From positions 1 to 33,011 of the forward strand of contig NZ_WSTA01000040.1 of the NCBI RefSeq assembly GCF_009789225.1: 33,011 nt of DNA, given 5' to 3'. Origin of the DNA: Agromyces seonyuensis. Lineage in GTDB: Bacteria; Actinomycetota; Actinomycetes; Actinomycetales; Microbacteriaceae. The notes under the pieces were generated by a model. That model did not search any database and was not told where the DNA came from. It was given only the letters and a program-made list of their open reading frames with translations. Positions 2,160 through 26,217 of the stretch are shown here, piece by piece. Position numbers and translations under genes: made by a program. Position 1 is the stretch's first letter. Each line of letters starts with the position of its first letter.

Positions 2160-3380
2160 TCACCGGTCCGGCGTCAGTCGCACGGGCAGGGTCTCCCACG
2201 CCCGGAGCGTGTTGTTGAGGTGGCGTGTCGGGGTGCCGGCCGGTTCGATCGTCTCGACTCGGGCTGCAAGGGCGGTCAGCAGCGCCACGGCTTCGAGGCG
2301 GGCGACGTGCTGGCCGACGCACTGGTGGATGCCCATGCCGAAGCCGACGTGTCCGGACGGGTCGCGGTGCAGATCGAATCGGCCCGGGTCGCTCCAGCGG
2401 CGAGGGTCTCGATTCGCAGATCCGAGGAACATCAGGATCTTGCGTCCCTCGGGAATGCGCACACCGTCGATCTCGACGTCGCGGGTGGTCGTGCGGAAGA
2501 AGGTCTGCACGGGGGACTCGAGTCGGATCGCCTCATCGAATGCGACGCGGGCGAGAGCGGGGTTCGAGCGGAGCGCGGCCCACGCCTCAGGGGTGCGGGC
2601 GAATGCCGCCAGGATCGCCCCGAGGGCGTGGATCGTCGTGTCGACGCCGGCCGACAGCAGCGATCGGACCATGAGCGGGGCCTGCGCTTCGGTGATGTCG
2701 CCGCGGTCGGTCGCGGCCCAGATATCCGCCCCGAACCCGGTCGGAGCGAGCGCGTCGCGGGCGCACTGCTCATTCACCCAACCGGCGTGCTCGGGGAGCG
2801 ACGGTGCGCCGTGCTGCACGAGGAAGTTCTCCGGACCGAAGGTGTTGAAGAGGTGGTCTCCATAGGGCAGGAGGTGTTCGCGGCCTTCCTGCCGGAGGCC
2901 GACGGCGTCCGGGAAGACGCGGAGCGGGAACGCTTCGGCCAGTTCGGTGACGGCGTCGAACTCGGTGCCGCGCGCGAGGACCTCGTCGACGAGCGCTGCG
3001 GCGTCCGCGCGCCACTGCGGCTCGAGCGCCCGCAGCGCGCGGGGCCCGAGGATCTTCTGGAGCACGGCGCGCGGCGCATCGTGGTGCGGCGGATCGGCCT
3101 CCAGCAGCAAGCTCGGCGGCCGCCACGGCGGTTCGCGACGGAAGTCCGAGATGCCGACGCCGGCCGAGGATTCGAACGACTGCCAGTCGGTGAGCGCCGC
3201 GTGCACGGTGTCGTAACGGCCCATCGCGTCGACGTCGTAGCGCTCGAGGTGGACGACCTCGCCCGCCTCGCGGAGCGCCTCATGGAACTCATGGGGATCG
3301 GCGAGCAGCTCGGCGGAGAACGGGTCGGCGCTGGAGGTGGGACGGGTTCGGTGCACGGGGCCGTGAAGCGTTTCGGTCAT
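2160..3380 (-). CDS. Cytochrome P450, CYP199A-like (para-substituted benzoate O-demethylase type)
   Basis: A 406-residue soluble bacterial P450 of full length. Seen: I-helix SAGVDTT (residues 243-249, acid-alcohol pair Asp247-Thr248), ExxR Glu283-Arg286, and heme loop FGMGIHQC with the axial Cys354. The whole chain resembles CYP199A2/A4 as I recall them, including DPHEFHEALREAG, SDFRREPPWRPPS, QEGREHLLPY, ESPVQTFFRTTTR and FLGSANRDPRRWSDP. Positions equivalent to those holding the substrate carboxylate and ring in CYP199A4 are kept: Arg87, Ser90, Phe178, Phe181, Arg239, Ser240, Ser243 and Phe294. CYP199A enzymes remove the methyl of 4-methoxybenzoate and veratrate, so para-O-demethylation or para-hydroxylation of a benzoate or cinnamate is the likely reaction. 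A GAAAGG site precedes the ATG. It lies 61 nt downstream of its reductase in one operon, under the IclR-side palindrome at 4533-4551. Confidence 0.93.
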   Translation of the reverse strand: MTETLHGPVHRTRPTSSADPFSAELLADPHEFHEALREAGEVVHLERYDVDAMGRYDTVHAALTDWQSFESSAGVGISDFRREPPWRPPSLLLEADPPHHDAPRAVLQKILGPRALRALEPQWRADAAALVDEVLARGTEFDAVTELAEAFPLRVFPDAVGLRQEGREHLLPYGDHLFNTFGPENFLVQHGAPSLPEHAGWVNEQCARDALAPTGFGADIWAATDRGDITEAQAPLMVRSLLSAGVDTTIHALGAILAAFARTPEAWAALRSNPALARVAFDEAIRLESPVQTFFRTTTRDVEIDGVRIPEGRKILMFLGSANRDPRRWSDPGRFDLHRDPSGHVGFGMGIHQCVGQHVARLEAVALLTALAARVETIEPAGTPTRHLNNTLRAWETLPVRLTPDR

Positions 3381-3441
3381 GATGGTGCCTTTCGCAGGTG
3401 CGTGTGCCGGCGGCGCGAAGCCCATGCCGGGCAGGAGCGGG

Positions 3442-4434
3442 CTAGAGGGCGATGACGAGGCGGTCGCTGCGCGATCGGGATACGCACGGGAAGAAGCAGT
3501 TTCCGCGGGCGCGTTCCGCATCATCCAGGAGCGCATCGCGGTGGTCGGGCTCGCCGGCGAGCACCTCCGTCTCGCACGTGCCGCAGACGCCGCGTGCGCA
3601 CGAGGTGAGCACATCGAAGCCGGCGATTCGGAGTGTCTCGACCACGGTGGTCCCGGGCTCGACGATGAGCGTGCGGTCGGTGCCCGCGATCTCGAGCGCG
3701 AACGGCGTCGCGCGGGCCGGGCCGGATGCCGTGGCGGTGAAGCGCTCGACGCGCACCCATCCTGCGCGCCGGTTCGCACCGGCACGGACGACGGCGTCGA
3801 GCAAACCGGCGGGGCCGCAGGCGTATACCTTCGCGTCGCTGGGCGACTCGGCGATCCAGGCGTCGATGTCCGCACGGGCGCCGCTCGACCCTGAGCAGTG
3901 CAGCTGCACCCGATCACCGTGCCCGGCGAGCTCGGCCAGGTATGCGAGCGCACCGGGGCTGCGGCCGAGATAGAGCAGCCGCCAGTCGATGCCCAGCACG
4001 GTCGCAGCACGCAGCATCGGCAGGATGGGCGTGATCCCGATGCCGCCGGCGACGAAGGCGTAGGACGTCGCGGGCACGAGCCGGAAGTTGTTGCGCGGCC
4101 CGCCGAATCCGACCATGTCGCCGACCTCGAGCCGGTCGTGGACGAAGCGGGAGCCGCCATCGCCGTGCTCCTCCCGCTGCACTGCGATGCGGTAGCTGGA
4201 AGCGTCGCGCGGGTCTCCGAGCAACGAGTACAGGCGAGTCAGGCCGTTCGGCAGCATCAGGTCGAGGTGCGCGCCCGGCGTCCAGTCCGGGAGTCGGCCG
4301 GCGTCCGGGCGCTGCAATTCGAGCTCGACGACCTGGTCGGCAACGACGCGGCGCGCAGCGACGACGAGTCGGTCGACCGGCGAGGCGGCCGCCGGGTCGG
4401 CCGACACCGGGGACCGAGGCGAATCGTTGGGCAT
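3442..4434 (-). CDS. Phthalate-dioxygenase-reductase-type oxidoreductase (FMN, NAD(P)H, C-terminal 2Fe-2S)
   Basis: A 330-residue electron-transfer protein. Domain order: flavin domain (about 20-115, with RLYSLL at 67-72, the R-x-Y-S/T flavin signature), nicotinamide domain (about 120-235, GGIGITPI 130-137 and CGPAG 206-210), then a C-terminal plant-type ferredoxin domain with Cys279, Cys284, Cys287 and Cys317 (C-x4-C-x2-C-x29-C). This order is that of phthalate dioxygenase reductase and the VanB group. It should pass electrons from NAD(P)H directly to the downstream P450. The ATG at 4434 is chosen because a GAGGAGG site lies 6 nt upstream. It is first in the operon, divergent from the IclR gene. 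CYP199A enzymes described so far use a separate ferredoxin and reductase, so this fused partner is noteworthy. A Rieske oxygenase partner is the usual alternative, but none is present here. Confidence 0.92.
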   Translation of the reverse strand: MPNDSPRSPVSADPAAASPVDRLVVAARRVVADQVVELELQRPDAGRLPDWTPGAHLDLMLPNGLTRLYSLLGDPRDASSYRIAVQREEHGDGGSRFVHDRLEVGDMVGFGGPRNNFRLVPATSYAFVAGGIGITPILPMLRAATVLGIDWRLLYLGRSPGALAYLAELAGHGDRVQLHCSGSSGARADIDAWIAESPSDAKVYACGPAGLLDAVVRAGANRRAGWVRVERFTATASGPARATPFALEIAGTDRTLIVEPGTTVVETLRIAGFDVLTSCARGVCGTCETEVLAGEPDHRDALLDDAERARGNCFFPCVSRSRSDRLVIAL

Positions 4435-4532
4435 GGGACCTCCTCGTCCGCATGACGGATGCTCCGACCGCACGCCATCGTCGGCTGCGGCATCGAGCAA
4501 CCTAGACGCGTGCGATCCGTCGCCGCGACGGT

Positions 4533-4594: not shown

Positions 4595-5494
4595 ATGGCG
4601 CGCTCATCCGATGGCCGCTCGACGCTGAGCCGCCAGTTGCAAGTGCTCGACGCATTCAGCGTCGAGGCGCCCTTCCTCACGGTCGCCGAGATCTCCCGGC
4701 GGACGGGTCTGCCGGTCTCCACCACGCATGCGCTGGTCCGCGCGCTCGCCGACGTCGGCCTCCTCGAGTTGCACGAAGCGCGCCGCTACCGGCTCGGAGT
4801 CCGCCTCTGGGAACTCGCTGCCCGGACTCCTGGTGCGCTGGGCCTGCGCGAGCTCGCCGGCCCGCACCTCCATGCGGCGCACGCGACGGTCGGGCAGCAC
4901 GTGCAACTCGGCATCCTCAACGGCGCCGACGTGCTGTTCCTCGAGCGCCTGTCGGCGCGCGATGCGGTCGTCAACGCCACGGTGATCGGTGGCCGGTTGC
5001 CGCTGACCTCGTCGTCCTCCGGACTCGTGCTCCTCGCCGACGCCGATCCGAGCAGTCGGGAGACCGTGCTCGCCGGCCCGATCCCCGCCTACACCGAGCG
5101 AACGCCGAGAACCTCCGCGGAGGTCCGTCGCCTCCTCGCGCAGGTCCGACGACAGCGTTTCGCGATGACGGAAGGATTCATCCACCCGGATGCGCGAGGT
5201 ATCGCAGTTGCGGTGACGGGAGCTGCGGGTGAAACGGTCGCGGCCATCGGCGCCGTCGTCCCCAACGATCGAACTCCCTGGGAGCCGGTGCTGGCCGTGC
5301 TCAGGTCGACGGCGACGGCGATCTCGGCCGACCTGCGTGCCGCGGCCCTGCCGCAGTCGCATCCCGATGCGAGCCCCGGCGGCTCCTTCCGAGCACTGGT
5401 GCACTCGTCAGACGACTCGATGTCCTATCTCGCGAGTCGCCGGCTGCGCGCCCGCGATGCGTCGGACGAATCGGTTCAGTCGCCGCGCGGATGA
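4595..5494 (+). CDS. IclR-family transcriptional regulator
   Basis: A 299-residue regulator. The N-terminal winged HTH spans about 12-75 (LQVLDAFSVEAPFLTVAEISRRTGLPVSTTHALVRALADVGLLE), followed by the GAF-like IclR effector domain to about residue 255, with the typical signature GLVLLAD, and DARGIAVAVTGAAGETVAAIGAV near the end. A roughly 40-residue polar C-terminal extension follows, longer than in most IclR proteins. The ATG at 4595 gives the standard HTH position. IclR proteins often control aromatic catabolism (PcaR, PobR type). Divergent placement and the 19-bp palindrome suggest that it controls the reductase-P450 operon and perhaps itself, with a benzoate-type acid as a plausible effector. 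Its 3' end overlaps the convergent LysR gene by 19 nt. Confidence 0.9.
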   Translation: MARSSDGRSTLSRQLQVLDAFSVEAPFLTVAEISRRTGLPVSTTHALVRALADVGLLELHEARRYRLGVRLWELAARTPGALGLRELAGPHLHAAHATVGQHVQLGILNGADVLFLERLSARDAVVNATVIGGRLPLTSSSSGLVLLADADPSSRETVLAGPIPAYTERTPRTSAEVRRLLAQVRRQRFAMTEGFIHPDARGIAVAVTGAAGETVAAIGAVVPNDRTPWEPVLAVLRSTATAISADLRAAALPQSHPDASPGGSFRALVHSSDDSMSYLASRRLRARDASDESVQSPRG

Positions 5495-6441
5495 CGGGCG
5501 GCGACGCCGGCGATGAGGTCGCGCAGCCAACGATGACCGGCGTCGGCGCCGTAGGTCGCCCCGTTCCACCAGAAGGCCTGGCGGATCGGCGGCAGCGGAA
5601 GCGGGCTGTCGACGACTGAGACATCGGTGCGATCCGCGAATCGGGCGGCAGCGGAGGCCGGCAGGAACGCCACCCGGTCCGTCCCGGCGACCATGTCCGG
5701 CAAGGTGAGGAAACTGCGAGTCGTGACCTGGGTGCGCGGATAGATGCCTCGCTGGTGCAGTTCGCGGCTGGCGGCGATGACGGCGGTGCGACCGCTGAAG
5801 GTCGTCGCCCACGGTCGCGCGCCGAGGGCTGCGATGTCGAGTTCCGGTGCGCCTTCGCCGCTGGCTGCGACGAGGCAGCACCAGGCGTCTTCGAAGAGGT
5901 CCAGGTAGTCGGTGTGCTCGATGAAGCCGTGCGGAAGGATCAGCCCGTCGATGCCGCGCAGCGAGTCGGGAGCCTCGTCGACGAGCTCGTCGCGCAGGTG
6001 TTCGATCCGGAGCATCGCGCGAGGCGCGGCGATCGAGACCGCCTTCGAGAGCCGGGCTCCGAAGACTGCCGCGACGTAGTCGGAGCAGACGATCCGGAAC
6101 TCGCGCTCGCTCGTCCCAGGATCGAACTCCGTTTGGGCGCCGAAGAGCTTGGCCAAGGCCGACGCCGTCGATTGCACTTCGGGGAGCAGTTCGACGGCGA
6201 GTTGACTGAGCACGTATCGGTTTCCGGAGCGAACGAGCAGCTCATCGTCGAAGTGCCGGCGAAGCCTGCCGAGGGCAGAGGACAAGGCGGGCTGGCTCAT
6301 GAAGAGTCGATCCGCCGCCCGACTGACGCTTCGCTCTTCGAGCAGCGCCTGGAGGGGGACGATCAGGTTGAGATCGACGCCCGAGAGCCTGCCGCCCCCG
6401 ACCGGGGCCGACGGCTCTCGCGCGGCTTCATCATCGACCAT
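5476..6441 (-). CDS. LysR-family transcriptional regulator (NodD/FdeR-like N-terminus)
   Basis: A 321-residue LysR regulator. After a roughly 20-residue polar leader, residues 21-80 carry the HTH: GVDLNLIVPLQALLEERSVSRAADRLFMSQPALSSALGRLRRHFDDELLVR. The LDLNL-x-x-L start and the spacing to the LxPxA-like tail resemble the NodD/NahR/FdeR branch that senses aromatic compounds. Residues ~105-315 form the periplasmic-binding-like effector domain. The ATG at 6441 has a GGAGGG site upstream. The gene starts 13 nt after the LacI gene on the same strand, so the two are probably co-transcribed, linking sugar control with an aromatic sensor. Its target is unknown; candidates are the promoters near 16545-16792 and 23149-23462. 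It shares this family and domain layout with the LysR at 15600-16544. Confidence 0.88.
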   Translation of the reverse strand: MVDDEAAREPSAPVGGGRLSGVDLNLIVPLQALLEERSVSRAADRLFMSQPALSSALGRLRRHFDDELLVRSGNRYVLSQLAVELLPEVQSTASALAKLFGAQTEFDPGTSEREFRIVCSDYVAAVFGARLSKAVSIAAPRAMLRIEHLRDELVDEAPDSLRGIDGLILPHGFIEHTDYLDLFEDAWCCLVAASGEGAPELDIAALGARPWATTFSGRTAVIAASRELHQRGIYPRTQVTTRSFLTLPDMVAGTDRVAFLPASAAARFADRTDVSVVDSPLPLPPIRQAFWWNGATYGADAGHRWLRDLIAGVAARHPRGD

Positions 6442-6454: not shown

Positions 6455-7510
6455 CTATCGTTCCGTGCTCCGTCGAACGACCACGGTCGGATCGAGACGC
6501 ACGGCTTGATGCCGGTGGGTCGGATCGTCACTCTCGGCGACGAGAAGCCGCACGCCGGTTTCCCCGAGTGCTTCGCCCGGCTGGGCGACCGTCGAGAGTG
6601 GAACCGGAGCATCCCACGCGGCCTGGTTGTTGTCGTACCCGATGACTCCGACATCCTCAGGGACTCGGATGCCGGGCGTCTCGGCGAGGGCTTGGACGAT
6701 CCCCGCAGCGAGCAGGTCGGATGCGGCGACGACGCCGTCGATCTCGCCGGCGGCGATGCGGGGAGCCAGCATGCGGCCCACCTGCCAACCGTCTGCTCGA
6801 TTGATCCACTCGGGTCCGATCTCGGCGACCGCGGCCAGGCCCGCGGACGCGAGTGCTCGGCGGACTCCGGCGCGCCGGTCGGCGATCGGCTGGAGGCTGT
6901 CGGGCCCGCCGACGAAGGCGAGCCGGCGCCGACCGGTGGCGAGCAGGTGCGCTGCAGCCAAGGCACCGCCGGCCTCGTTGTCGATGGAAACGGTGCAGAA
7001 GCGGCCGTCGTCGGCGTGCAGGTTCAGGAGGATCAGCGGCCCGCGCTGTCTCGAGCGTGCGGCGATCTCACGAAAATGCGACTCGTCGTTCAGGGTGAGC
7101 AACAGCCCTCGCACTCGCGACTCCGTGAGGAGTTCGACGTATCGGTCTTCGCGTTCGAGGCGGCCGTCGCTATTGGCCAGCACCACCGACAGCCCGAGTT
7201 CGTCCGCGGCGCGCTCGGCGCCACGGGCGATGTCGACGAAGAGCGAGTTCCCGAGGTCGGAGAGCACCAACCCGATCGAGCGCGAATGGCCGGCGACGAG
7301 CGAGCGCGCCGCGCCGTTCGGGACATACCCGAGCAGCTCGATGGCCCGTTCGACGCGCTCGATCGTCGCAGCGGCCACGCGCTCCCGATGGTTCAGGACG
7401 TTCGACACCGTCGACGGCGAAACTCCCGCGAGCGCCGCGACATCGGTGATGCCGACGCCGTCGACGGCGCCGCGCTTCGTCGCGCCCGGCGCGGTCGTTG
7501 CGGAGGTCAT
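6455..7510 (-). CDS. LacI-family transcriptional regulator
   Basis: A 351-residue LacI/GalR repressor. The HTH and hinge occupy residues ~20-75 (GITDVAALAGVSPSTVSNVLNHRERVAAATIERVERAIELLGYVPN), followed by a periplasmic-binding-like sugar domain (IGLVLSDLGNSLFVDIARGAERAADELGLSVVLANSDG, later DGVVAASDLLAAGIVQAL and VGVIGYDN, the standard effector-domain landmarks). An in-frame ATG at 7561 would add 17 residues, but it would put the LacI-type operator at 7529-7542 inside the coding region, so the ATG at 7510 is preferred. No good ribosome site is visible. It is divergent from the sugar-type importer and rhamnosidase genes and probably represses them, responding to rhamnose or a rhamnose-containing sugar. 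It is followed after 13 nt by the LysR gene. Confidence 0.9.
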   Translation of the reverse strand: MTSATTAPGATKRGAVDGVGITDVAALAGVSPSTVSNVLNHRERVAAATIERVERAIELLGYVPNGAARSLVAGHSRSIGLVLSDLGNSLFVDIARGAERAADELGLSVVLANSDGRLEREDRYVELLTESRVRGLLLTLNDESHFREIAARSRQRGPLILLNLHADDGRFCTVSIDNEAGGALAAAHLLATGRRRLAFVGGPDSLQPIADRRAGVRRALASAGLAAVAEIGPEWINRADGWQVGRMLAPRIAAGEIDGVVAASDLLAAGIVQALAETPGIRVPEDVGVIGYDNNQAAWDAPVPLSTVAQPGEALGETGVRLLVAESDDPTHRHQAVRLDPTVVVRRSTER

Positions 7511-7528
7511 GCCGCGAGTGTACGCGGC

Positions 7529-7542
7529 TTGCAGCGATGCAA
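7529..7542. promoter_or_regulatory. LacI-type operator, regulator side
   Basis: TTGCAGCGATGCAA: a 14-bp dyad with the central CG typical of LacI-family sites, arms pairing at 6 of 7 positions. It lies 19 nt upstream of the LacI gene start, placed for autoregulation. A related element is found at 7651-7664 in the same intergenic region. Confidence 0.65.
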
Positions 7543-7650
7543 CCGAACCCACCTTGTCCATTCGCTTCGTCGATACCGGCTATTCGGCACGCGATAAGCC
7601 AATTCGAGGAATCCGCGAGTGCCGCTCCCGAGCGCCACGTAGCATCCCCG

Positions 7651-7689: not shown

Positions 7690-8991
7690 GTGACCACAGC
7701 ACGTAACGGGGCGCGCCGCATCGTCCCGATCATCGCCGGCATCGGAGCCGCAGCGCTCGCATTGACCGCTTGCTCGAGCGGTGGCGGCGAAACCGCGGCG
7801 CCCACCGAGTTCAGCTACCTGTCGTTCGCCGAGAACACGTCGATCCAGGACACGCTCACCTCGCTCAGCGAGGACCAGTGCGCGACGGAGAACGAAGCAC
7901 TGCCGCTCAAGGTGACGACGCAGCCGCAGGCCAGCTACGACCAGCAGCTCCAGCTGCTCGCGGGACAGAACGCGCTGCCGGTCCTCTTCGCGAGCGGCAA
8001 CACGCCGCAGGTCGCGAAGGACCTGCAGCAGGGCGGCAAGCTCGTCGACGTCGAGCAGGCCCTCGAGGACCTCGACAAGTCGGACGCGATCATCCCGGCT
8101 GCGAAGTCGACGATCGACGCCCTCTACGACGGCGAGCAGTACGTGCTTCCGACGGAGTTCAACGTCGAAGGCATCTGGTACAACAAGCAGCTCTTCGCCG
8201 ACAACGGCATCGAGGTCCCCACGACGTGGGACGAGCTGGTCGCCGCGGCTGACACGCTCAACGCCGCCGGCATCATCCCGTTCTCGGCGGACGGCCAGGA
8301 CGGCTGGCCGCTCACGCGTCTGGTCGGCAACTACCTCTACCGCGACCTCGGCCCCGATGCGCTGCAGAAGGTGGCCGATGGCGAGGCCAGCCTGACCGAC
8401 CCCGAGTACGTCGAGGCCGCCGCCGCGGTCGCCGACCTCGGCGAGAAGGGCTACTTCGGCCCCTCCGTCACCTCGATCGACTACATGACGGCCGTCAACC
8501 AGTTCCTGACCGGCCAGGCCGGCATGTTCTACATGGGCAGCTGGATCCTCGCGAACTTCAACGACCCGAGCCAGAACCAGATCGGCGCCGAGAACATCGG
8601 CTTCATTCCGTTCCCCGCGGTCGAGGGCGGGGCCGGCTCCGCCGACCAGCTCGCCGCGAACGTCGGTGTCCCGCTGGCGCTCTCCGAGGCGTCCTACGGC
8701 GACGACGTTGCCGGCTGGCTGGGCTGCTTCGCCGACAACTTCGGATCGAGCTCGCTGCAGAACCAGGGCGTCATCACCGGCTTCAAGGTCAACACGCCGG
8801 TCGAGGACCTGCCCCCGCTGACCCAGACCGTCCAGGACCAGATCGACCAGACGACGCAGAGCGTCCTCTGGTTCGAGGCGCTCTTCAACGCCAAGGCCGC
8901 AACCACCAGCCAGACCAACGCCTCCCAGCTCGTCACCGGTGCCATCAGCCCGGAGGAGTTCATGGAGATGGTCCAGGCCGACCTCGGCTGA
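7690..8991 (+). CDS. ABC transporter extracellular substrate-binding lipoprotein (CUT1 sugar type)
   Basis: A 433-residue family-1 solute-binding protein. It starts with a basic region and a hydrophobic stretch ending in the lipobox LTAC, with Cys28 as the lipidated residue, then a Ser/Gly-rich linker. The body has the usual landmarks: YDQQLQLLAGQNALPVLFASG, FNVEGIWYNKQLFADNGIEVPTTWDELVAAADTLNAAGI (the strongest family signature, about 155-195), and FLTGQAGMFYMGSWI. The GTG at 7690 is chosen because of the AAGGAGGA site 4-11 nt upstream. It should capture an oligosaccharide or glycoside on the outer membrane face for the two permeases that follow. The coupled rhamnosidase and glycosidase suggest a rhamnose-containing ligand. 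Confidence 0.93.
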   Translation: MTTARNGARRIVPIIAGIGAAALALTACSSGGGETAAPTEFSYLSFAENTSIQDTLTSLSEDQCATENEALPLKVTTQPQASYDQQLQLLAGQNALPVLFASGNTPQVAKDLQQGGKLVDVEQALEDLDKSDAIIPAAKSTIDALYDGEQYVLPTEFNVEGIWYNKQLFADNGIEVPTTWDELVAAADTLNAAGIIPFSADGQDGWPLTRLVGNYLYRDLGPDALQKVADGEASLTDPEYVEAAAAVADLGEKGYFGPSVTSIDYMTAVNQFLTGQAGMFYMGSWILANFNDPSQNQIGAENIGFIPFPAVEGGAGSADQLAANVGVPLALSEASYGDDVAGWLGCFADNFGSSSLQNQGVITGFKVNTPVEDLPPLTQTVQDQIDQTTQSVLWFEALFNAKAATTSQTNASQLVTGAISPEEFMEMVQADLG

Positions 8992-9004
8992 ACGAACCCG
9001 TGAG

Positions 9005-9042
9005 GGCGGTGCGGCGGCTTCCCCCCGAGCCGTCGCACCGCC
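9005..9042 (+). other. Intercistronic hairpin after the binding-protein gene
   Basis: A 14-nt arm at 9005-9018 (GGCGGTGCGGCGGC) pairs with 9029-9042 (GCCGTCGCACCGCC) with one G/T mismatch around a C-rich 10-nt loop. Such structures between binding-protein and permease genes commonly protect the upstream mRNA or partly terminate transcription, giving more binding protein than permease. No T tract follows. Confidence 0.65.
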
Positions 9043-9070
9043 TTCCTCCGCTCGACGAAAGAACTTTGCT

Positions 9071-9955: not shown

Positions 9956-9960
9956 CGACA

Positions 9961-16544: not shown

Positions 16545-16604
16545 GTCGGTGTGTCCTCCGGTACGGCGCTCGTCGTCGAGCGTGCGGCGATGGTAGCACC
16601 ACGC

Positions 16605-18987: not shown

Positions 18988-20121
18988 ATGACCGCAGTAT
19001 CCAAGGTCGCGATCGCCGGCAGCGGCGCCGCCGCGCTCGCCGCCGCCATCCCGCTCGCCGAAGCCGGCGTCGCCGTCGACGTCTTCGAGCTCAAGACCGA
19101 GACGTCCACGCTCGGCTCGGGCATCACCCTGCAGGGCAACGCCCTGCGCGCACTGCACCGCCTCGGCGTCTGGGACGCCGTGCAGAAGCGGGGCTACACC
19201 TTCGAGGGCCTCACCCTCCGCGCCCCCGGCCCCGGCGCCCCGGTGATCGCCGAGCTGCCCGAGATCAAGACGGGCGGCGCCGACTTCCCCGCGTGCATGG
19301 GCATGTACCGGCCCGACCTCGCCCGCATCCTCGTCGACCGCGCGCTCGAGGTCGGCGTGCGCATCCACTACGGGTCCAAGGTCACCGGCGTGCGCCAGAC
19401 CGACACCGGCGTGCTCGTCGACGTCGGCGGTGCCCCGGTCGGCGAGTTCGACCTGCTCATCGGCGCCGACGGCCTCCACTCGACGGTGCGGCACCTCATC
19501 GGCATCGAGACGAAGCCGGAACCGACCGGCATGGGCATCTGGCGGGCGTTCGTGCGCCGCCCCGCGGAGGTCACCCAGTCGCAGCTCTACTACGGCGGCC
19601 CGATGTACATCGCCGGCTACACGCCGACCGGCGAGGACACCTGCTACGCCTTCCTCGTCGAAGACGCCCAGGACCGCTTCGACGTCCCGACCGAGGACGC
19701 CGTCGAACTCATGCGTGCGGCGTCCGCCGCGTACGGCGGCCCGTGGGAGGAGATCCGTGCCTCGCTCGGCGCCGACTCGCGCGTGAACTACACCTGGTTC
19801 ACCTCGCACCTCGTCGAGGGGGCGTGGAACCGCGGACGCACCGTCGTCATCGGCGACGCCGCCCACTCCTGCCCGCCGACCGTCGCCCAGGGGGCCGCCC
19901 AGGCGCTGGAGGACGGCACGGTGCTCGCCGAGCTCCTGCTCGCCGCCGACGCCGTCGACGAGGGACTCTGGGCCGAGTTCCACGCGCGCCGAGTGCCGCG
20001 TGCCAGCGCCGTCGTCGAGGCGAGCGTGCAGCTCGGGAAGTGGCAGCTCGAGCACAACCGCGACGCCGACGCGGCCGGCCTCATCTTCGGCATCTCGCAG
20101 CAGATGGCGGTGCCCGCGTGA
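18988..20121 (+). CDS. FAD-dependent aromatic monooxygenase (class A flavoprotein hydroxylase)
   Basis: A 377-residue flavoprotein hydroxylase of the PHBH fold. Seen: the Rossmann dinucleotide motif VAIAGSGAAALAAAIPLAEAG with Glu at the end of strand two (residues 7-34), the DG motif GADG (Asp161-Gly162) in FDLLIGADGLHSTVR, and the GD motif VVIGDAAHSCPP (Gly289-Asp290), which binds FAD ribose. It lacks the C-terminal thioredoxin-like domain of larger phenol hydroxylases. It should hydroxylate a phenol to a catechol using NAD(P)H and O2, supplying the dioxygenase encoded upstream. AAGGAGG sits 7 nt before the ATG. In Herbaspirillum the monooxygenase FdeE hydroxylates naringenin at C8; a similar role is inferred here. 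The stop overlaps the FAA hydrolase start (GTGA). Confidence 0.9.
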   Translation: MTAVSKVAIAGSGAAALAAAIPLAEAGVAVDVFELKTETSTLGSGITLQGNALRALHRLGVWDAVQKRGYTFEGLTLRAPGPGAPVIAELPEIKTGGADFPACMGMYRPDLARILVDRALEVGVRIHYGSKVTGVRQTDTGVLVDVGGAPVGEFDLLIGADGLHSTVRHLIGIETKPEPTGMGIWRAFVRRPAEVTQSQLYYGGPMYIAGYTPTGEDTCYAFLVEDAQDRFDVPTEDAVELMRAASAAYGGPWEEIRASLGADSRVNYTWFTSHLVEGAWNRGRTVVIGDAAHSCPPTVAQGAAQALEDGTVLAELLLAADAVDEGLWAEFHARRVPRASAVVEASVQLGKWQLEHNRDADAAGLIFGISQQMAVPA

Positions 20122-22307
20122 GGATCGGGCGCTGGATGCTCGCCGGCGCGCCGGGCGAGGGCTTCATCGAGGATGACGGCGTCGTGCCGTTCCCCGATGG
20201 GCTCGCGGTCGCAGACGTGCTGCGGCTCGGGCTCGCCGCCCTCCCCGGCATCCGCAAGCGGGCCGGCGACCCGGTCGCCCGGCTGGACGAGGTCGTCCTG
20301 CGCGCGCCGCTCGTTCCCGCGAGCGTGCGCGACTTCGTCGCGTTCGAAGAGCATGTCGCAGGCGTCAGCGCCGGCATCGAGGGCACGTCGGACGTGCCGG
20401 CCGAGTGGTACGAGGCGCCGACGTTCTACTTCACGAACCCGCACACGATCCTCGGCCCCGGCGAGGCCGTCGCCCCTCCCGTCACCGAACGGCTCGACTA
20501 CGAACTCGAGGTCGCGGCCGTCATCGGCGGCCCCGACGGAGCGAACCTCGACGTGGCCGGCGCGGCCGAGGCGATCTACGGGTACACGATCATGAACGAC
20601 TGGTCCGCCCGAGACCTCCAGGGCCGCGAGATGAAGGTGCGCCTGGGGCCCTGCAAGGGCAAGGACTTCGGCACGTCGCTCGGTCCCTGGATCGTCACCG
20701 CGGACGAACTCGAGCCGTATCTCGATGCGGACGGCTTCCTCGCACTGCACGCGGAGGTGTTCGTCAACGGGCAGCGCTACGGCGAGGACCTCCTCTCGAA
20801 CATGGGCTGGCCGTTCCCCGAACTCGTCGCCTACGCCTCGCGGAACTCGCGGGTCGTCGCCGGCGACGTGCTCGGCTCCGGCACGGTCGGCAACGGCGGA
20901 TGCCTCGGGGAGCTCTGGGGCCTCGCGGGCGGACTCACGCCGCCGCCGCTGCAGGTCGGCGACGAGGTGCGGATGCTCGTGGAGGGGATCGGCGAACTCG
21001 TCGGCACGGTGGGGGATCCGGTCGCCTCCCCGTCGCTGCCCGCGGCCCGAGCGCGTTCGCGTCCACTCGCGGGCCCGGCCGGCGCTGTTGCACCGACCGG
21101 GCGCCCGTCAGGCGGTCGCTGCCGCGCGTTCGGGGAACGCCCCGGTCGCGAGTTCCCCGAACGTCTCCGCGACCCAGTCGGCGATGATGCTCGCCACGTA
21201 GGCCATGTGGTCGATGGAGATGTGCTCGGTGCCGCCCTCGGGGTCGTCGAAGATCCGCAGTTCCCGTTTCGGCGAGTCGACGGCCTGCTCGTAGGTCTCA
21301 TGCGCGTACTTCACGGGGATCTGGCGGTCGTTCGCGCCGTGCGTGATGAACAGCGGGGCGGTGATCCGCTCGGCGACGCCGTTCAGGTGCATCCCCTTCG
21401 TCTTCTCGAAGAAGTCGTCGAGGTCGGCGGCGCCCCAGACCCACTTGACGTGGTCCCAGTAGTGCGGAACCGGGTTCTCGCCCTCGCGGTTGCGACGCGC
21501 CTGCTGCACCGCGGCCCAGTCGTGGTTGGCGCCCCACGCGACGCCGAGCTTCAGCCGCGGTTCGAAGGCGAGGGCGCGGGGCGCGTAGTAGCCGCCGAGC
21601 GACCAGCCGACGATTCCGATGGCGTCGGGGTCGACTGCGAGGGCCTCGGCGTTCGCCTCGAGCCAGTCGATGATCGCACCCGCCCACACCTCGGTGTCGT
21701 AGCGGGCGGTGAGGCCACGGAGCCGGAGGGCTTCGCCCGAGCCCGGGGTGTCGACCATGAGCGTCGAGACGCCGCGCTCAGCGAGCATCCGTGGGAAGCC
21801 CGAGTAGAACATCATCTCCTTCGTCGAATCCAGGCCGTTCCACTGGATGACGACCGGGTGCGGTCCCTCGCCTGGCGCGCGGTAGAAGTAGCCGGGGAGC
21901 GAAGCATCCTCGAACGGGATCTCGACCGTCGTGAGCGGGACGCCGCTCAGTTCGACGTGCTTGAGCAGCAGGTCGATCGACTTCTGATAGGCGGCGTTGC
22001 GTCCGGGCCAGAACGGCGACTGGAGGCGCTCCGCCTGGGAGGTGTAGAGCGAGGCTCGGTAGTAGGTCTCGCCGGCGCCGATGCGACGGCCGCGGGCTTC
22101 GTCGTCCTCGGCCTTCGCGACGAGTCGGTCGGCGACGGCCTCCCACGCCGCGTAGAGCTCTTCGGTGCCGGCGTCGTCACCCCGCTGCGAAGCCAGGAGG
22201 ACGGGCTTGCAGGCCCGGTCGACCTCGTCGATGAGGCCGCCGCAGTTGAGCGCGGCGACGGGCGCCATGCTCCACACGTAGTTGTCGGGGAAATACATGA
22301 ACACTGA
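20118..22307 (+). CDS. Fumarylacetoacetate-hydrolase-family protein; reading frame lacks a stop after the domain
   Basis: The start GTG (20118) overlaps the monooxygenase stop. Residues 1 to about 305 are a complete FAA hydrolase: metal ligands Glu129 and Glu131 in LDYELEVAAVIG, Asp161 in NDWSARDLQ, then CKGKDFGTSLGPWIVT, VFVNGQRYGEDLLSNMGW and VLGSGTVGNGGCLGELWG. It should hydrolyse the C-C bond of an acylpyruvate-like ring-fission product. The domain ends near 21030, but no forward frame has a stop before the convergent hydrolase gene begins at 21108. The true frame runs on to TGA at 22305-22307, giving 729 codons, of which roughly 420 are antisense to the alpha/beta hydrolase. The tail is almost certainly not a domain. 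A C-to-T change at 21048 would turn CGA into TGA. Either the stop was lost, there is a sequence error, or a tail is really translated. The conserved part is 20118 to about 21050. Confidence 0.75.
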   Translation: MRIGRWMLAGAPGEGFIEDDGVVPFPDGLAVADVLRLGLAALPGIRKRAGDPVARLDEVVLRAPLVPASVRDFVAFEEHVAGVSAGIEGTSDVPAEWYEAPTFYFTNPHTILGPGEAVAPPVTERLDYELEVAAVIGGPDGANLDVAGAAEAIYGYTIMNDWSARDLQGREMKVRLGPCKGKDFGTSLGPWIVTADELEPYLDADGFLALHAEVFVNGQRYGEDLLSNMGWPFPELVAYASRNSRVVAGDVLGSGTVGNGGCLGELWGLAGGLTPPPLQVGDEVRMLVEGIGELVGTVGDPVASPSLPAARARSRPLAGPAGAVAPTGRPSGGRCRAFGERPGREFPERLRDPVGDDARHVGHVVDGDVLGAALGVVEDPQFPFRRVDGLLVGLMRVLHGDLAVVRAVRDEQRGGDPLGDAVQVHPLRLLEEVVEVGGAPDPLDVVPVVRNRVLALAVATRLLHRGPVVVGAPRDAELQPRFEGEGAGRVVAAERPADDSDGVGVDCEGLGVRLEPVDDRTRPHLGVVAGGEATEPEGFARARGVDHERRDAALSEHPWEARVEHHLLRRIQAVPLDDDRVRSLAWRAVEVAGERSILERDLDRRERDAAQFDVLEQQVDRLLIGGVASGPERRLEALRLGGVERGSVVGLAGADATAAGFVVLGLRDESVGDGLPRRVELFGAGVVTPLRSQEDGLAGPVDLVDEAAAVERGDGRHAPHVVVGEIHEH
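21073..21102. terminator. Hairpin between convergent FAA-hydrolase and alpha/beta-hydrolase genes
   Basis: A 10-nt arm at 21073-21082 pairs with 21093-21102 (CCCGGCCGG against CCGACCGGG, one mismatch, plus a closing G-C) around a 10-nt loop. It lies in the 60-80 nt between the end of the FAA domain and the alpha/beta-hydrolase stop, where a bidirectional terminator is expected. This supports the view that the FAA gene originally ended before it. Confidence 0.5.
21108..22304 (-). CDS. Alpha/beta hydrolase, 2,6-dihydroxypseudooxynicotine-hydrolase/FrsA-like
   Basis: A 398-residue serine hydrolase. A roughly 140-residue helical N-terminal region (LIDEVDRACKPVLLASQRGDD..., YYRASLYTSQAERLQSPFWPGR) is followed by the alpha/beta fold from about residue 140. 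The nucleophile elbow is GWSLGG (Ser235), with probable acid Asp326 in THGANDRQIPV and base His366 in SIDHMAY. This architecture is that of 2,6-dihydroxypseudooxynicotine hydrolase and related DUF1100/FrsA proteins, which cleave C-C bonds next to a keto group. A role in cleaving a diketone-like ring-fission product is inferred. A GTG at 22304 is chosen because AGGAGA lies 8 nt upstream; an ATG two codons in (22298) is the alternative. It is second after the SDR in a two-gene operon and convergent with the FAA hydrolase gene. Confidence 0.85.
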   Translation of the reverse strand: MFMYFPDNYVWSMAPVAALNCGGLIDEVDRACKPVLLASQRGDDAGTEELYAAWEAVADRLVAKAEDDEARGRRIGAGETYYRASLYTSQAERLQSPFWPGRNAAYQKSIDLLLKHVELSGVPLTTVEIPFEDASLPGYFYRAPGEGPHPVVIQWNGLDSTKEMMFYSGFPRMLAERGVSTLMVDTPGSGEALRLRGLTARYDTEVWAGAIIDWLEANAEALAVDPDAIGIVGWSLGGYYAPRALAFEPRLKLGVAWGANHDWAAVQQARRNREGENPVPHYWDHVKWVWGAADLDDFFEKTKGMHLNGVAERITAPLFITHGANDRQIPVKYAHETYEQAVDSPKRELRIFDDPEGGTEHISIDHMAYVASIIADWVAETFGELATGAFPERAAATA

Positions 22308-22341
22308 GGTCTTCTCCTGGTGCGTTGAAACGGTGATCTGG

Positions 22342-23148
22342 TCAAGCTGTGGGGGATGACGCGGCGATGCGGTCGGCGAGATACTTCGCACCGGCCGACG
22401 ACGCGAAGCCGCCGTCGACCGGGATCTCGGCGCCGGTGAGGTAGCTCGCGGCATCGGAGAGCAGGAACGCGACGAGGGTTGCGACTTCATTCGCGAGCCC
22501 GGTGCGTTCGAGGGGCGTCAAGGCGATCTGCGCCTCGCGCATCACTGCAGGTGCGGTCGCCGTCATGTCGGTTTCGATGAAGCCGGGATGCACGATGTTG
22601 ACGCGGATGCCGCGCGGGCCGAGCTCGGTCGCCGCCGAATGGGTGAGGCCGCGAAGGGCCCACTTCGAGGTCGTGTAGGCGACCGGGTAGTGGCCGTTGA
22701 GCGCGGCGATCGACCCGATGTTGACGATGGAGGATCCGGCTGCCATCAGCGGCGCGAGCGTGCGGATGCCGAGCATCGCACCGCTCACGTTGACAGCCAA
22801 CACGCGGTTCCAGTCGCCTTCGTCGACCTCGAGGATCCGAGAGCGCCACGTGATGCCGGCGTTGTTCACGAGACCGCGGAGCGGGAGGGACTCGCGCTCG
22901 AGCTCGCCGGCGAGGTCCCTCCACGCACGGGAGTCGGTGACATCCAGGCGGCGGTATCGCAGTCCCGTCCCGCGGAGGGCGGCCGGGGTAGCTGCACTCA
23001 GATCGGTGGCGACGACCCGAGCCCCGGCCGAGTCGAGGAGGAGCGCTGCGGCCGCTCCCTGGCCGCCGGCGGCGCCGGTGACCACGATGGTGCGACCAGT
23101 GAGTTCCGGAATCGCGCGGGTCGAGTCGGCGAGGTCAGATTCCGACAT
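22342..23148 (-). CDS. Short-chain dehydrogenase/reductase (SDR, classical)
   Basis: A 268-residue classical SDR. The cofactor motif TGAAGGQG is at 24-31 (T-G-x3-G-x-G), Asp69 in the adenine-ring LDV motif, NNAG 95-98, and the catalytic Ser146, Tyr158 and Lys162 (NIGS...YTTSK), ending in the PVDGG motif. Asp49 at the end of the second strand (VVATD) favours NAD(H). It should oxidise or reduce a hydroxy/keto group of a catabolic intermediate; the exact substrate is unknown. The ATG at 23148 has a GGAGG site 6 nt upstream. It is first in a minus-strand operon with the alpha/beta hydrolase (37 nt gap) and is divergent from the MFS transporter. Confidence 0.9.
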   Translation of the reverse strand: MSESDLADSTRAIPELTGRTIVVTGAAGGQGAAAALLLDSAGARVVATDLSAATPAALRGTGLRYRRLDVTDSRAWRDLAGELERESLPLRGLVNNAGITWRSRILEVDEGDWNRVLAVNVSGAMLGIRTLAPLMAAGSSIVNIGSIAALNGHYPVAYTTSKWALRGLTHSAATELGPRGIRVNIVHPGFIETDMTATAPAVMREAQIALTPLERTGLANEVATLVAFLLSDAASYLTGAEIPVDGGFASSAGAKYLADRIAASSPTA

Positions 23149-23462: not shown

Positions 23463-24686
23463 ATGACCGAAACGTCCGTCGCCGCCCCCGCCGGCACCCG
23501 CCGAGCCGGCGTCTGGCAGGCCGTCCTGCTGCTCGCCGGCAGCTGCATGCCGGTGCTCGGCTCAGTGCTCATCACCCCGGTGCTGCCCCAGCTGTCGGAG
23601 CACTTCGCCGCCGTGCCGGGCGCCGAGGTGCTCGTGCCGATGATCGTCGCGATCCCGGCTCTGATGATCGCGCTCTTCGCTCCCTTCGCGGGCCAGATCG
23701 TCGACCGGCTCGGCCGCAAGACGCTGTTGATCGTCGCGATGATCGCGTACGCCGTCGTCGGCACCGCTCCCGCGTGGCTCGACGCGCTGCCGGCGATCCT
23801 CGTCAGCCGCGTGTGCGTCGGCGTGTTCGAGGCCGCCATCATGACGGTCTGCACGACGCTCATCGTCGACTACTTCCACGAGGAACGCCGTCGCAACCGC
23901 TACCTCGGGATCCAGACCGTCGTGACCACGCTCGCCGCCACGGTGTTCATCGCGCTCGGCGGCGCGCTCGGCGTCGGGGGCTGGCACACGCCGTTCTGGG
24001 TCTACGCCATCAGCCTCGTGATCGCGGTGCCGATGATCTTCTCGCTCTGGGAACCGAACCCGGTCGAGACCGGCGAAGCGAAGGCGGGCGAGCCGGCCGC
24101 GACGGTGCGCGTCCCGTGGGGCCGCATCGGGGTTCCGCTGCTCGTCACCCTCTTCGGCGGCTTCACGTTCTACGTCCTCATCATCGAACTCAGCTATCTC
24201 ATCGTCGGCACCGGCGTCGCCGCGACCGACACTGCCGTCATCGGTGGCGTCGCGGCCATCGCCTCGCTCGCGACCGCGATCGGCGGTCTGCTCTTCGCGC
24301 GACTCATCCGATTCCGACACGGTGTGCTCATCCCGGTCGCGTTCGCACTCCAGGCAGTCGGCATGCTGACGATCTGGGCGGCACCGGTCGTGCCCGGCAT
24401 CGTCGCCGGCGCGATCATCGCCTCGTTCGGGTCGGGCCTCCTGCTGCCCTCGCTCGTGACTTGGGTGATCGCGGCTGCGCAGTTCGGAGACCGCGGGCGT
24501 GTCACCGGATGGTGGACCTCGGCGTTCTTCTTCGGTCAGTTCCTCACGCCGATCCTCATCGGCATCCTGGCTGCGGCACTCGGCGGCCTCCCCGCTGCCG
24601 TCGGCGTCGTCGGCGTCGCGGCGGTCCTGGTGGGTGCGTGCGTCCTCGTCGCCCTTCGCCGTCCGGTCGCCGAGCCGGTCGCCTGA
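23463..24686 (+). CDS. MFS transporter
   Basis: A 407-residue major facilitator with twelve predicted helices. Motif A between helices 2 and 3 reads GQIVDRLGRK, and the first helix begins near residue 18 (QAVLLLAGSCMPVLGSVLITPVLPQL). A cytoplasmic loop with a charged stretch (EPNPVETGEAKAGEPAATVRVPWGR) separates the two six-helix halves. The ATG at 23463 is preferred over an in-frame start 51 codons upstream, because that extension would run through the dyads in the promoter region and GGAGAG lies 8-13 nt before this ATG. It is divergent from the SDR gene. It probably imports an aromatic acid or aglycone for the pathway, but export cannot be excluded. Confidence 0.9.
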   Translation: MTETSVAAPAGTRRAGVWQAVLLLAGSCMPVLGSVLITPVLPQLSEHFAAVPGAEVLVPMIVAIPALMIALFAPFAGQIVDRLGRKTLLIVAMIAYAVVGTAPAWLDALPAILVSRVCVGVFEAAIMTVCTTLIVDYFHEERRRNRYLGIQTVVTTLAATVFIALGGALGVGGWHTPFWVYAISLVIAVPMIFSLWEPNPVETGEAKAGEPAATVRVPWGRIGVPLLVTLFGGFTFYVLIIELSYLIVGTGVAATDTAVIGGVAAIASLATAIGGLLFARLIRFRHGVLIPVAFALQAVGMLTIWAAPVVPGIVAGAIIASFGSGLLLPSLVTWVIAAAQFGDRGRVTGWWTSAFFFGQFLTPILIGILAAALGGLPAAVGVVGVAAVLVGACVLVALRRPVAEPVA

Positions 24687-24701
24687 CGCCATACGAAGCG
24701 T

Positions 24702-24731: not shown

Positions 24732-24765
24732 GCGATCGCGACCGTCAGGATCGCGAATCCGGATG

Positions 24766-24780
24766 CGCGGTATCACCGCG
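24766..24780. promoter_or_regulatory. Palindrome upstream of CoA-transferase genes
   Basis: CGCGGT-ATC-ACCGCG, a perfect 6-nt dyad with a 3-nt centre, lies 69 nt before the CoA-transferase A start. It is framed by GATGC (24762-24766) and GCATC (24785-24789), echoing the arms of the LysR-type dyads elsewhere. It is a likely operator for the CoA-transferase pair; the binding protein is not identified. Confidence 0.45.
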
Positions 24781-24848
24781 ACGAGCATCGATTCAACCGC
24801 CCGAGCCGACGGGCGTGGGCAGGCTTGAGCACGACACGAGGGAGTGAG

Positions 24849-25586
24849 ATGACGGACAAGACCCAACCGAGTGCGGCCGACGCGCTCTCCGGCTTGGTCG
24901 CCGACGGCATGACGATCGCGGTCGGCGGGTTCGGGCTGTCGGGCATCCCGACGAACCTGATCCGGGCGCTGGCCGACACCGGGGTTCGGGACCTCACGGT
25001 CGTGAGCAACAACATGGGCGTCGACGGCAAGGGCCTGGGCATCCTGCTCGAGAACGGGCAGGTGCGCAAGGTGCTCTCCTCGTACGTGGGGGAGAACCGG
25101 CTGTTCGCCGAGCAGTACCTCTCCGGCGAGCTCGAGGTCGAGTTCGTGCCGCAGGGCACGCTCGCCGAGCGGCTGCGTGCCGGCGGCGCAGGCATCCCGG
25201 CCTTCTACACGCCGACCGGCGTCGGCACCCCCGTCGCAGACGGCAAGCCGGAGGCGGACTTCGACGGCACACGGGCGATCCTGGAGCGTGGCATCGTCGC
25301 CGATCTCGCCCTCGTGCGCGCCTGGCGGGCGGATCGGGCGGGCAACCTCCGCTACCGGCTCACGGCCCGCAACTTCAACCCGCTCGTCGCGGCCGCGGGC
25401 CGGCTCACGGTCGTGGAGGCCGAGGAGATCCTCGACGAGCCGATCGCCCCCGACGACATCCACACCCCGGGCATCTTCGTGCAGCGGCTCGTCGCCGTCG
25501 CCGACCCCGTCAAGGACATCGAACAGCGCACGGTCCGCCCCCGCGCGATCGTCGAGGACAAGGAATCCGCCCATGTGGACGCGTGA
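24849..25586 (+). CDS. 3-oxoacid CoA-transferase, subunit A
   Basis: A 245-residue family I CoA-transferase alpha subunit. The family signature [13 protein letters not shown] is at about 26-39, followed by [36 protein letters not shown] and [19 protein letters not shown], characteristic of ScoA/PcaI-type subunits. With subunit B it moves CoA from succinyl-CoA to a 3-oxoacid such as acetoacetate or 3-oxoadipate. The ATG at 24849 follows a GGAG site by 4 nt, with GAGGGAG just upstream. It overlaps the subunit B gene by 14 nt, so the two are translationally coupled. Sequence alone does not separate acetoacetate from 3-oxoadipate as substrate; the location at the end of the aromatic island favours a ring-derived 3-oxoacid. 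Confidence 0.92.
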
Positions 25587-26217
25587 CGAGATGGCCGCCA
25601 TCGCGGCCAGGGACCTGCAGGACGGCGACTACGTCAACCTCGGCATCGGCATCCCGACCCTGGTGGCCAACAACCTGCCCGACGGCGTCCAGGTGACGCT
25701 GCAGTCCGAGAACGGCATCCTCGGCATGGGGCCCTTCCCTCTCGAGGGCGAGGAGGACGCCGACCTCATCAACGCCGGCAAGCAGACCGTGACGCTGCTG
25801 CCGGGCGCCTCCGTGTTCGACTCGGCGACGAGCTTCGGGATGATCCGCGGCGGCCACGTCGCCACCGCGATCCTCGGCGCGCTGCAGGTCTCGCAGTTCG
25901 GCGACCTCGCGAACTGGCAGATCCCCGGCAAGCTCGTCAAGGGCATGGGCGGCGCCATGGATCTGGTCGCCGGCACTCCGCACGTGATCGTCGTCACCGA
26001 GCACGTCGCCAAGGACGGCACCCCGAAGATCGTCGCCGCCTGCGACCTGCCGCTCACCGGCGTCGCCTGCGTGGACCGCATCGTCAGCGATCGCGCCGTC
26101 TTCGACGTGGATGCCTCGACGGGGCTGACCCTCGTCGAGCTCGCACCCGGCGAGAGCGTCGACGGGCTCCGGGAACTGACCGGTGCGACCTTCGCAGTTG
26201 CGAGCCGGCTGACGTAG
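25573..26217 (+). CDS. 3-oxoacid CoA-transferase, subunit B
   Basis: A 214-residue beta subunit. [20 protein letters not shown] (21-40) is followed by the active-site motif [11 protein letters not shown], with Glu46 as the residue that forms the CoA thioester. Then come [53 protein letters not shown] and [15 protein letters not shown], all hallmarks of ScoB/PcaJ proteins. The ATG at 25573 lies inside the last codons of subunit A (14-nt overlap). The TAG stop at 26215-26217 is 19 nt from the first unit of the downstream repeat array. This is the last gene of the catabolic island. Confidence 0.93.

Follow-up and report, generated by a model that had tools for sequence, protein, structure and literature searches.

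Candidate flavonoid glycoside catabolic island of Agromyces seonyuensis, built around a conserved, mainly actinobacterial aromatic core

Contig NZ_WSTA01000040.1 of Agromyces seonyuensis (33,011 nucleotides, all of which we analysed and call the window; it belongs to the 3.92-Mb assembly GCF_009789225.1; G+C 70.3%) carries a block of catabolic genes at positions 2160 to 26217 that is most likely an island to import, deglycosylate and digest plant flavonoid glycosides by ring opening. We think it probable, if by no means assured, that the block serves O-glycosylated flavonoids, most likely flavone rhamnosyl-glucosides. Its aromatic core recurs across many genera beside differing sugar genes, and with one or the other of two mutually exclusive sets of cleavage enzymes. 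An earlier reading of the letters of this DNA (the sequence-only reading) had described the block as a candidate island for rhamnosyl-glucosyl phenolics; scans of 47 window ORFs with Pfam, along with NCBIfam scans, found every enzyme that it named in place and added a P450 reductase.

The core lies on the forward strand and consists of an extradiol dioxygenase (EDO, 16793..17812), a PF04199 'cyclase' metal-type hydrolase, predicted to act on lactones or esters (17893..18918), a group A FAD monooxygenase (FMO, 18988..20121), predicted to hydroxylate the flavonoid A ring at C8, and an FAA hydrolase, a predicted acylpyruvase (20118..21080). The EDO is of type I, with two VOC domains (PF00903 in two stretches) and a 2-His-1-Glu site whose putative ligands H151, H215 and E266, assigned by motif, are conserved across 68 rows; with TIGR03211 it scores 247.6 bits and does not reach the cut-off of 320.2. 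In the PF04199 protein the motif QWDGLGHIFD is conserved over 58 rows, and the AlphaFold model has a mean pLDDT of 67.8, with residues 81-140 below 50. The FMO matches PF01494 and exceeds the NF005313 cut-off (386 vs. 372 bits). The FAA hydrolase (PF01557) lacks a stop where the alignment of its relatives ends, near residue 320, and its frame stays open to position 22307, for 729 amino acids, over an antisense hydrolase gene. In Microbacterium aoyamense DSM 19461 the SDR and hydrolase genes have the same orientation as the FAA gene, so an inversion in the window may have removed the FAA stop. A LysR regulator upstream (LysR 2, 15600..16553, reverse strand; PF00126, PF03466) is a recurrent neighbour, often kept beside the core.

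Among 299 genomes from the window's family, an EDO orthologue (at least 62% identity) is present in 26, the window's included. We fetched 20 kb around the 26 EDO orthologue matches outside the window (25 genomes) and found the PF04199 gene adjoining in 21, the FAA hydrolase in 21 and the FMO in 20. A scan of named genomes with the PF04199 protein confirmed 347 relatives; we retained the best 80 and added the window and two plasmid loci, for a set of 83 loci, 81 of them actinobacterial by title (the titles among the 80 that are not are Planococcus sp., L112, and Candidatus Melainabacteria, L157). PF04199 is present in all 83 by construction; the FMO occurs in 80, the FAA hydrolase in 80, the EDO orthologue in 63 and the SDR in 48. 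Conservation of the core across so many genera argues that it is more than a chance assembly, and the expectation of the sequence-only reading that its gene groups stay together in relatives thus holds for the aromatic core; it fails for the 20 GH78 loci described below. A second EDO lineage, with 21-24% identity to the window's EDO, occurs in at least nine loci, replacing the window's type in seven (L072, L160, L167, L171, L175, L177 and L178) and additional to it in two (L112 and L146); the VOC dioxygenase encoded in a plasmid cluster of Sphingomonas sp. R1 shares 42-46% identity with the three best members of this lineage. A literature search returned no account of this core or of a flavone ring-cleavage cluster in actinobacteria among the texts within reach, which covered few subscription papers.

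The antisense gene in the window encodes a DHPON-type alpha/beta hydrolase (21108..22301, reverse strand), a predicted beta-diketone or pyrone C-C hydrolase with similarity to PDB 2jbw (E = 2.7 × 10−26), whose putative triad S234/D325/H360, assigned from motifs, is conserved in all of the 19 rows that have the column. In most relatives an additional FAA hydrolase (FAA2) is encoded, as a rule between the EDO and PF04199 genes, along with a PF04909 amidohydrolase. Of the 75 loci (out of 83) that are at least 14 kb long, 57 have FAA2 together with the amidohydrolase and 18 have neither; the DHPON-type hydrolase is found in none of the 57, vs. 16 of the 18 (Fisher's exact test, p = 1.8 × 10−14, uncorrected for kinship). 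Two short loci (L157 and L170) have FAA2, with the amidohydrolase not in view. Likewise, the 26 EDO loci of the family, which come partly from the same genomes, include 14 with an FAA2-type match, 6 with a DHPON orthologue (at least 71% identity) and none with both. On an FMO tree of 75 of the 83 rows (73 labelled), built by a quick method without a mixture model and flagged with a long-branch warning, the type of cleavage set switches 10 times, with no fewer than 5 of the switches on well-supported branches. The window is of the DHPON type, yet its nearest FMO relatives are of the FAA2 type. An independent-pair test on this tree gave 4 of 5 pairs in opposite states and none in the same state (p = 0.125), too few for significance. 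The simplest reading is that the DHPON-type hydrolase and the pair of FAA2 and amidohydrolase are two unrelated solutions for one conversion. LigI-type amidohydrolases open pyrones, so the pair would suit a lactonase and a diketone hydrolase, with the DHPON-type enzyme as the alternative. Two proteobacterial plasmid loci, which we regard as leads and not as proof, K84 pAtK84c and Sphingomonas sp. R1 pR1a, encode DHPON-type hydrolases 47-51% identical to the window's along with distant FMOs (31-34%) and EDOs of 45% (K84) and 22% (R1) identity. The R1 locus (65140-94189) contains genes for a TonB receptor, an FMO, a VOC dioxygenase, the DHPON-type hydrolase (51%), a cupin and an FAA hydrolase, a cluster resembling the ifc and fde systems discussed below; it adjoins pobA and protocatechuate 4,5-dioxygenase genes, and these neighbours suggest 4-hydroxybenzoate as its product.

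The sugar unit of the window precedes the core. It comprises a LacI regulator (6455..7561 as the longest ORF, start uncertain, reverse strand; PF00356, PF13377) and, on the forward strand, the solute-binding lipoprotein (SBP) of a CUT1-type importer (7690..8991; PF01547, with a lipobox-like LTAC), two ABC permeases (8939..9955 as the longest ORF, start uncertain, and 9952..10866; both PF00528), a GH78 alpha-L-rhamnosidase (10863..13256) and a GH3 glycosidase of the beta-glucosidase or alpha-L-arabinopyranosidase type (13253..15493; PF00933, PF01915, PF14310). All four rhamnosidase domains of the GH78 protein (PF08531, PF05592, PF17389 and PF17390) score above cut-off, and its nearest solved rhamnosidase is PDB 6gsz (644 bits). 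A signal peptide was not seen by eye in either glycosidase, which agrees with the cytosolic location that had been assigned to both. In M. aoyamense, importer, GH78 and GH3 genes precede the same core, with identities to the window of 79% (SBP), 81 and 82% (permeases), 63% (GH78) and 58% (GH3). Importer and GH78 genes are also joined to the core in Streptomyces sp. NBC_01237 and stand with it in S. clavifer, where the GH78 gene lies at continuing coordinates that we take to mean the same contig. A GH78-GH3 pair in the window's order occurs on plasmid pLRE138 of Rhodococcus erythropolis R138 with genes for L-rhamnose isomerase, rhamnulokinase and aldolase, a region flanked on both sides by IS3 and other transposase genes.

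In other loci the core has a different sugar neighbour. CarA-like oxidase genes, of the type known from CarABC/PurABC C-glycoside deglycosylation in soil actinobacteria (as far as the available parts of PMC12724307 and PMC8563793 describe it), are found close to the core in 37 of the 83 loci, 21 of which also have a CarB- or CarC-like match. All three sampled CarB-like proteins match the Pfam family CGDB ('C-glycoside deglycosidase beta subunit'); two of them exceed the cut-off and one falls below it. Within the window's family, CarA is found in 22 of the 299 genomes, 18 of which belong to the 26 with the EDO (hypergeometric p = 3 × 10−19, uncorrected for kinship); 24 of the 37 family CarA matches lie within 40 kb of an EDO. 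Arthrobacter globiformis NBRC 12137, the source of AgCGD, likewise has CarA-type genes beside the core. The window's own genome gave no CarA match at E = 1 × 10−80 and has GH78 and GH3 genes at the locus instead; it also gave no CGDB (PF19906) match at 0.001, a weak result as control genomes gave none either. Together with the three loci that join importer and GH78 to the core, the CarA linkage supports the earlier proposal that a glycosylated phenolic is deglycosylated, hydroxylated and cleaved. Outside the actinobacteria, plasmid pDAETH-1 of Deinococcus aetherius holds a cluster combining C-glycoside-type genes with the core (sugar importer, GH3, isomerase, DUF6379, GMC oxidase, EDO, cyclase family protein, FAA, DHPON-type hydrolase and FAD oxidoreductases). 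Genes for a ROK regulator and Gfo/Idh/MocA, AP_endonuc_2 and ThuA proteins recur near the core in many loci (e.g., L100-L147), perhaps for 3-keto-sugars from C-glycosides.

At the other end of the block, on the reverse strand, lie a CYP199A-family P450 (2160..3380) and a PDR/VanB-type reductase with a C-terminal 2Fe-2S domain (3442..4434; PF00111), which resembles PbdB and scores below the cut-offs of the NCBIfam reductase models. The P450 scores 617 bits with PbdA (PDB 9g9q) and 481 bits with CYP199A4, and the PbdA motifs (W)RPPS and RSLL align unchanged; on our reading these would hold the residues equivalent to Arg84, Ser87 and Ser237, through which PbdA contacts the substrate carboxylate. 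PbdA of Rhodococcus jostii RHA1, partner of PbdB in the same type of P450-reductase pair, is described in the available text of PMC11530827 as a proven demethylase of 4-methoxybenzoate, veratrate and isovanillate; the window's pair differs in standing beside a flavonoid-type core. Given its family and the retained binding motifs, the window's P450 is predicted to demethylate 4-methoxybenzoates, including isovanillate, in line with the role in 4-methoxy B-ring products foreseen for it. P450, reductase and IclR genes also stand beside the core in genome G102 and in Agromyces salentinus, and P450 and reductase genes in Gordonia polyisoprenivorans. In Geodermatophilus amargosae the reductase and IclR genes are within the locus and the P450 just outside it by coordinates, contig identity being assumed. 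Two further genomes, G212 and that of locus L160, have a close P450 (75 and 69% identity) on another contig. The genome check behind the G. amargosae and L160 placements covered 14 of 15 loci (all but L139), picked partly for linkage already seen.

The block ends with genes for the two subunits of a 3-oxoacid CoA-transferase on the forward strand, A (24825..25586; TIGR02429, 245.7 bits vs. a cut-off of 128.5) and B (25585..26217; TIGR02428, above cut-off). For subunit B the PDB match list was headed by SCOT enzymes (259 bits) and contained no chain named PcaIJ. Elsewhere the genome encodes another CoA-transferase (48-53% identity) beside a thiolase gene, and genes for PcaH and a PobA-like enzyme are within 15 kb on the same contig; with a separate CoA-transferase in that pca locus, a different 3-oxoacid may be the substrate of the pair in the window.

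From general chemistry, we propose the following route, of which substrate, regiochemistry and order are predictions. The ABC importer would bring in the glycoside or its sugar part, and GH78 and GH3 would strip rhamnose and glucose in the cytosol. The FMO would then hydroxylate the A ring at C8, beside the 7-OH, converting a 5,7-dihydroxyflavone to a 7,8-catechol, and the EDO would cleave C8-C8a to give a 2,4-diketo acid (an acylpyruvate, HOOC-CO-CH2-CO-R). Acylpyruvates are the typical substrate of FAA-fold acylpyruvases; the FAA hydrolase would free pyruvate, and the remaining beta-keto acid would lose CO2 to form a 4-hydroxy-6-aryl-2-pyrone. The PF04199 and DHPON-type hydrolases may open this lactone and cut the resulting 3,5-diketo acid into acetoacetate, activated by the CoA-transferase, and a benzoate from the B ring. 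Where this bears a 4-methoxy group it would be demethylated by the P450 and reductase (4'-methoxyflavones would give 4-methoxybenzoate or isovanillate, both PbdA substrates), and the benzoate could then pass to the PobA-like enzyme and the pca gene products encoded at another place in the genome. The carbon balance would be C15 = 3 + 1 + 4 + 7, and the best substrates are predicted to be of the linarin, diosmin, fortunellin and rhoifolin type.

Characterised systems offer partial precedents. The ifc cluster of Variovorax sp. V35 shares with the window an FAD monooxygenase, a VOC dioxygenase and a DHPON-hydrolase-like alpha/beta hydrolase, and the accessible portion of that report (PMC11069340) gives the conversion of 8-hydroxydaidzein to 2-hydroxy-5-(4-hydroxyphenyl)-4H-pyran-4-one as proven; this isoflavone 8-hydroxylation and pyranone formation is a proven precedent for chemistry of the kind proposed here. 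The window lacks an IfcD-type cupin (no cupin among the 47 scanned ORFs) and adds PF04199 and FAA hydrolases, a CoA-transferase, a P450 and sugar genes; IfcA homologues are reported, in the part of PMC11069340 available, only from Proteobacteria. The fde naringenin operon of Herbaspirillum seropedicae is alike in kind, with an FMO acting as 8-hydroxylase and oxidative A-ring cleavage (available text of PMC11303751 and PMC11069340), and differs in its flavanone substrate; the comparison is by description. The window's gene set is thus like fde and ifc in kind, yet a distinct variant. Extradiol cleavage, a pyrone hydrolase and acetoacetate and pyruvate as end products are shared with the lumichrome pathway of Nocardioides simplex, which has another starting compound and, in what is available of PMC12746152, uses Rieske, xanthine-oxidase-like and thiamin enzymes.

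Several observations weigh against a dedicated flavone glycoside pathway. The FMO and EDO are only 22-45% identical to the Pseudomonadota cluster proteins compared, and no characterised flavonoid enzyme in that comparison, outside which FdeE and FdeC lay, is a close relative of either; fde had been named as the layout that the window recalls, and this closeness is not borne out. Five of the 26 family EDO loci (L040, L060-L062 and L064) have no PF04199, FMO and FAA orthologues within 20 kb; in three of them (L060-L062, from G274, G073 and G188) the EDO orthologue (69%) adjoins IclR genes, which suggests that it may also serve elsewhere. Only 3 of the 83 loci have the P450 near the core, 10-11 the CoA-transferase genes and 5 the GH78 gene (6 with S. 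clavifer), the latter without an importer in L153 and L168. In the family, the P450 is core-linked in 2 of 9 matches (2 of the 5 matches that reach 63% identity, the window's own included). The GH3 protein scores better with an arabinopyranosidase model (NF041610, 710 bits vs. a cut-off of 1300) than with beta-glucosidase models, all below cut-off. In the PDB, the CarA-like query matches a pyranose oxidase (8qve) best, followed by a GMC oxidoreductase (7qf8) and 7dve, the last two of which we take to be C-glycoside oxidases; some CarA-like proteins may therefore not be C-glycoside oxidases, and the two activities occupy one sequence space according to the available part of PMC11673046. Deletion of the Variovorax DHPON-like gene 59470 left daidzein degradation unaffected, by the same partial account of that strain (PMC11069340), and the SDR has no place in our scheme. 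Finally, none of 20 GH78 neighbourhoods of other genomes holds the core (PF04199, FMO or EDO) within 20 kb; these loci are the top of the match list minus two in between (G373 and G429), viewed for about 9 kb on each side. Sugar unit and aromatic core are thus separable, and with GH78 so rare near the core their coupling could be opportunistic.

That separability raises the rather unlikely alternative that the two are unrelated neighbours, a general rhamnoside unit inserted beside an aromatic pathway without a common substrate. Eight of the 20 GH78 neighbourhoods, two of them from the window's genus, do carry the LacI-SBP-permease-permease-GH78 unit with the core absent from the 20 kb viewed, and the R. 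erythropolis pair stands with rhamnose catabolism genes. Conversely, M. aoyamense and two Streptomyces have this unit joined to the core, and the window's importer is closer to that of core-linked M. aoyamense (79% SBP, 81/82% permeases) than to the stand-alone copies of its own genus (56-58% and 72-73/71-75%), although for GH78 the difference is small (63% vs. 58-60%). An ordinary monoaromatic pathway of the lignin type, in which the P450 demethylates 4-methoxybenzoate ahead of a meta-cleavage set, seems quite improbable. It would fit with a catechol 2,3-dioxygenase model being nearest to the EDO, and with G014 and G291, where a CYP199 relative (63-64%) adjoins another, distant EDO (31-34%) instead of the core; the window's EDO, however, falls under the curated catechol cut-off, the FMO is of neither the PobA nor the salicylate type, the genome has its separate PobA-like/pca locus, and glycoside genes often neighbour the core. 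Catechol breakdown, moreover, needs no DHPON-type hydrolase, FAA2 or amidohydrolase. Riboflavin or lumichrome catabolism was also considered and rejected, as the enzymes listed above for the lumichrome route were not seen among the scanned ORFs; that route, whose first part is known in Microbacterium, likewise has pyruvate and acetoacetate as end products.

If the parts do form one pathway, its substrate could differ from the one we favour. CarA acts on other substrates besides carminic acid. It originates from carminic acid metabolism, as the available text of PMC12724307 has it, so linkage to CarA does not single out flavonoids, and the low FMO and EDO identities are also compatible with another glycosylated plant phenolic (a xanthone such as norathyriol, a chromone, anthraquinone, isocoumarin or dihydrochalcone) degraded by the same hydroxylation and extradiol chemistry. 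We regard this as unlikely, though deserving a hearing: a 4-methoxybenzoate demethylase beside the core and a 3-oxoacid CoA-transferase suit the C6-C3-C6 balance of a flavone, and xanthones and anthraquinones would not be expected to yield benzoate and acetoacetate. Less probable still is a flavanone pathway like that of Herbaspirillum, in which naringin or hesperidin would undergo 8-hydroxylation and A-ring cleavage to a cinnamate end product. The enzyme kinds are the same (FMO, VOC dioxygenase, FAA hydrolase and LysR, the last two of which we assume fde to include). FdeE accepts flavanones, flavones, isoflavones and flavonols (available part of PMC11303751). Against it, 4-coumarate-type degradation genes were not seen among the 47 scanned ORFs, and the P450 family acts on benzoates (PMC11530827, as available). 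With a benzoate-specific P450 and a 3-oxoacid CoA-transferase, a flavone fits better than a flavanone, which should give cinnamate; the flavonoid glycosides proposed by the sequence-only reading are retained as the substrate class, with naringin and the fde scheme as the weaker fit.

Taken together, these results reveal a conserved, mainly actinobacterial module, probably for flavonoid aglycones and equipped in this genome with a rhamnosyl-glucoside front end. Tentatively, and as possible rather than probable, we extend this to a modular system of flavone mineralisation in actinobacteria: a fixed EDO/PF04199/FMO/FAA core leading to pyruvate, CO2, acetoacetate and benzoate, one step taken either by the DHPON-type hydrolase or by the amidohydrolase and second FAA hydrolase, exchangeable sugar front ends (CarABC serving C-glycosides and importer-GH78-GH3 serving rhamnosyl-O-glycosides), and, for 4'-methoxyflavones, an added CYP199A back end. 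Flavone glycosides, C-glycosides included, are abundant in plant litter and roots. In their available parts, accounts of soil C-glycoside enzymes stop at the aglycone (PMC12724307, PMC8563793). If correct, the proposal would give actinobacteria an aerobic pathway that leads all the way from the glycoside into central metabolism, with genes assigned throughout and every step open to testing with purified enzymes. It would account for the clustering of CYP199A, CoA-transferase and C-glycoside genes with one core, and would exemplify how unrelated enzymes can repeatedly replace each other at a C-C cleaving step.

The remaining genes of the block are an IclR regulator nearest to the PcaR/PcaU/PobR subfamily (4595..5494, forward strand; PF01614, PF09339; TIGR02431 at 113.8 bits, below the cut-off of 284.75), LysR 1 (5476..6441, reverse strand; PF00126, PF03466; 37% identical to LysR 2), the SDR dehydrogenase (22342..23148, reverse strand; PF13561) and an MFS transporter (23463..24686, forward strand; PF07690). 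The LysR regulators had been called NodD-like, a label that the curated models do not support: the best are BsrA and LeuO/LelA, far below cut-off. Beyond the block, at 26639-29414, follow apparently unrelated genes for a GntR-type regulator, an ABC ATPase, a type II chorismate mutase and a weak DUF4395 match.

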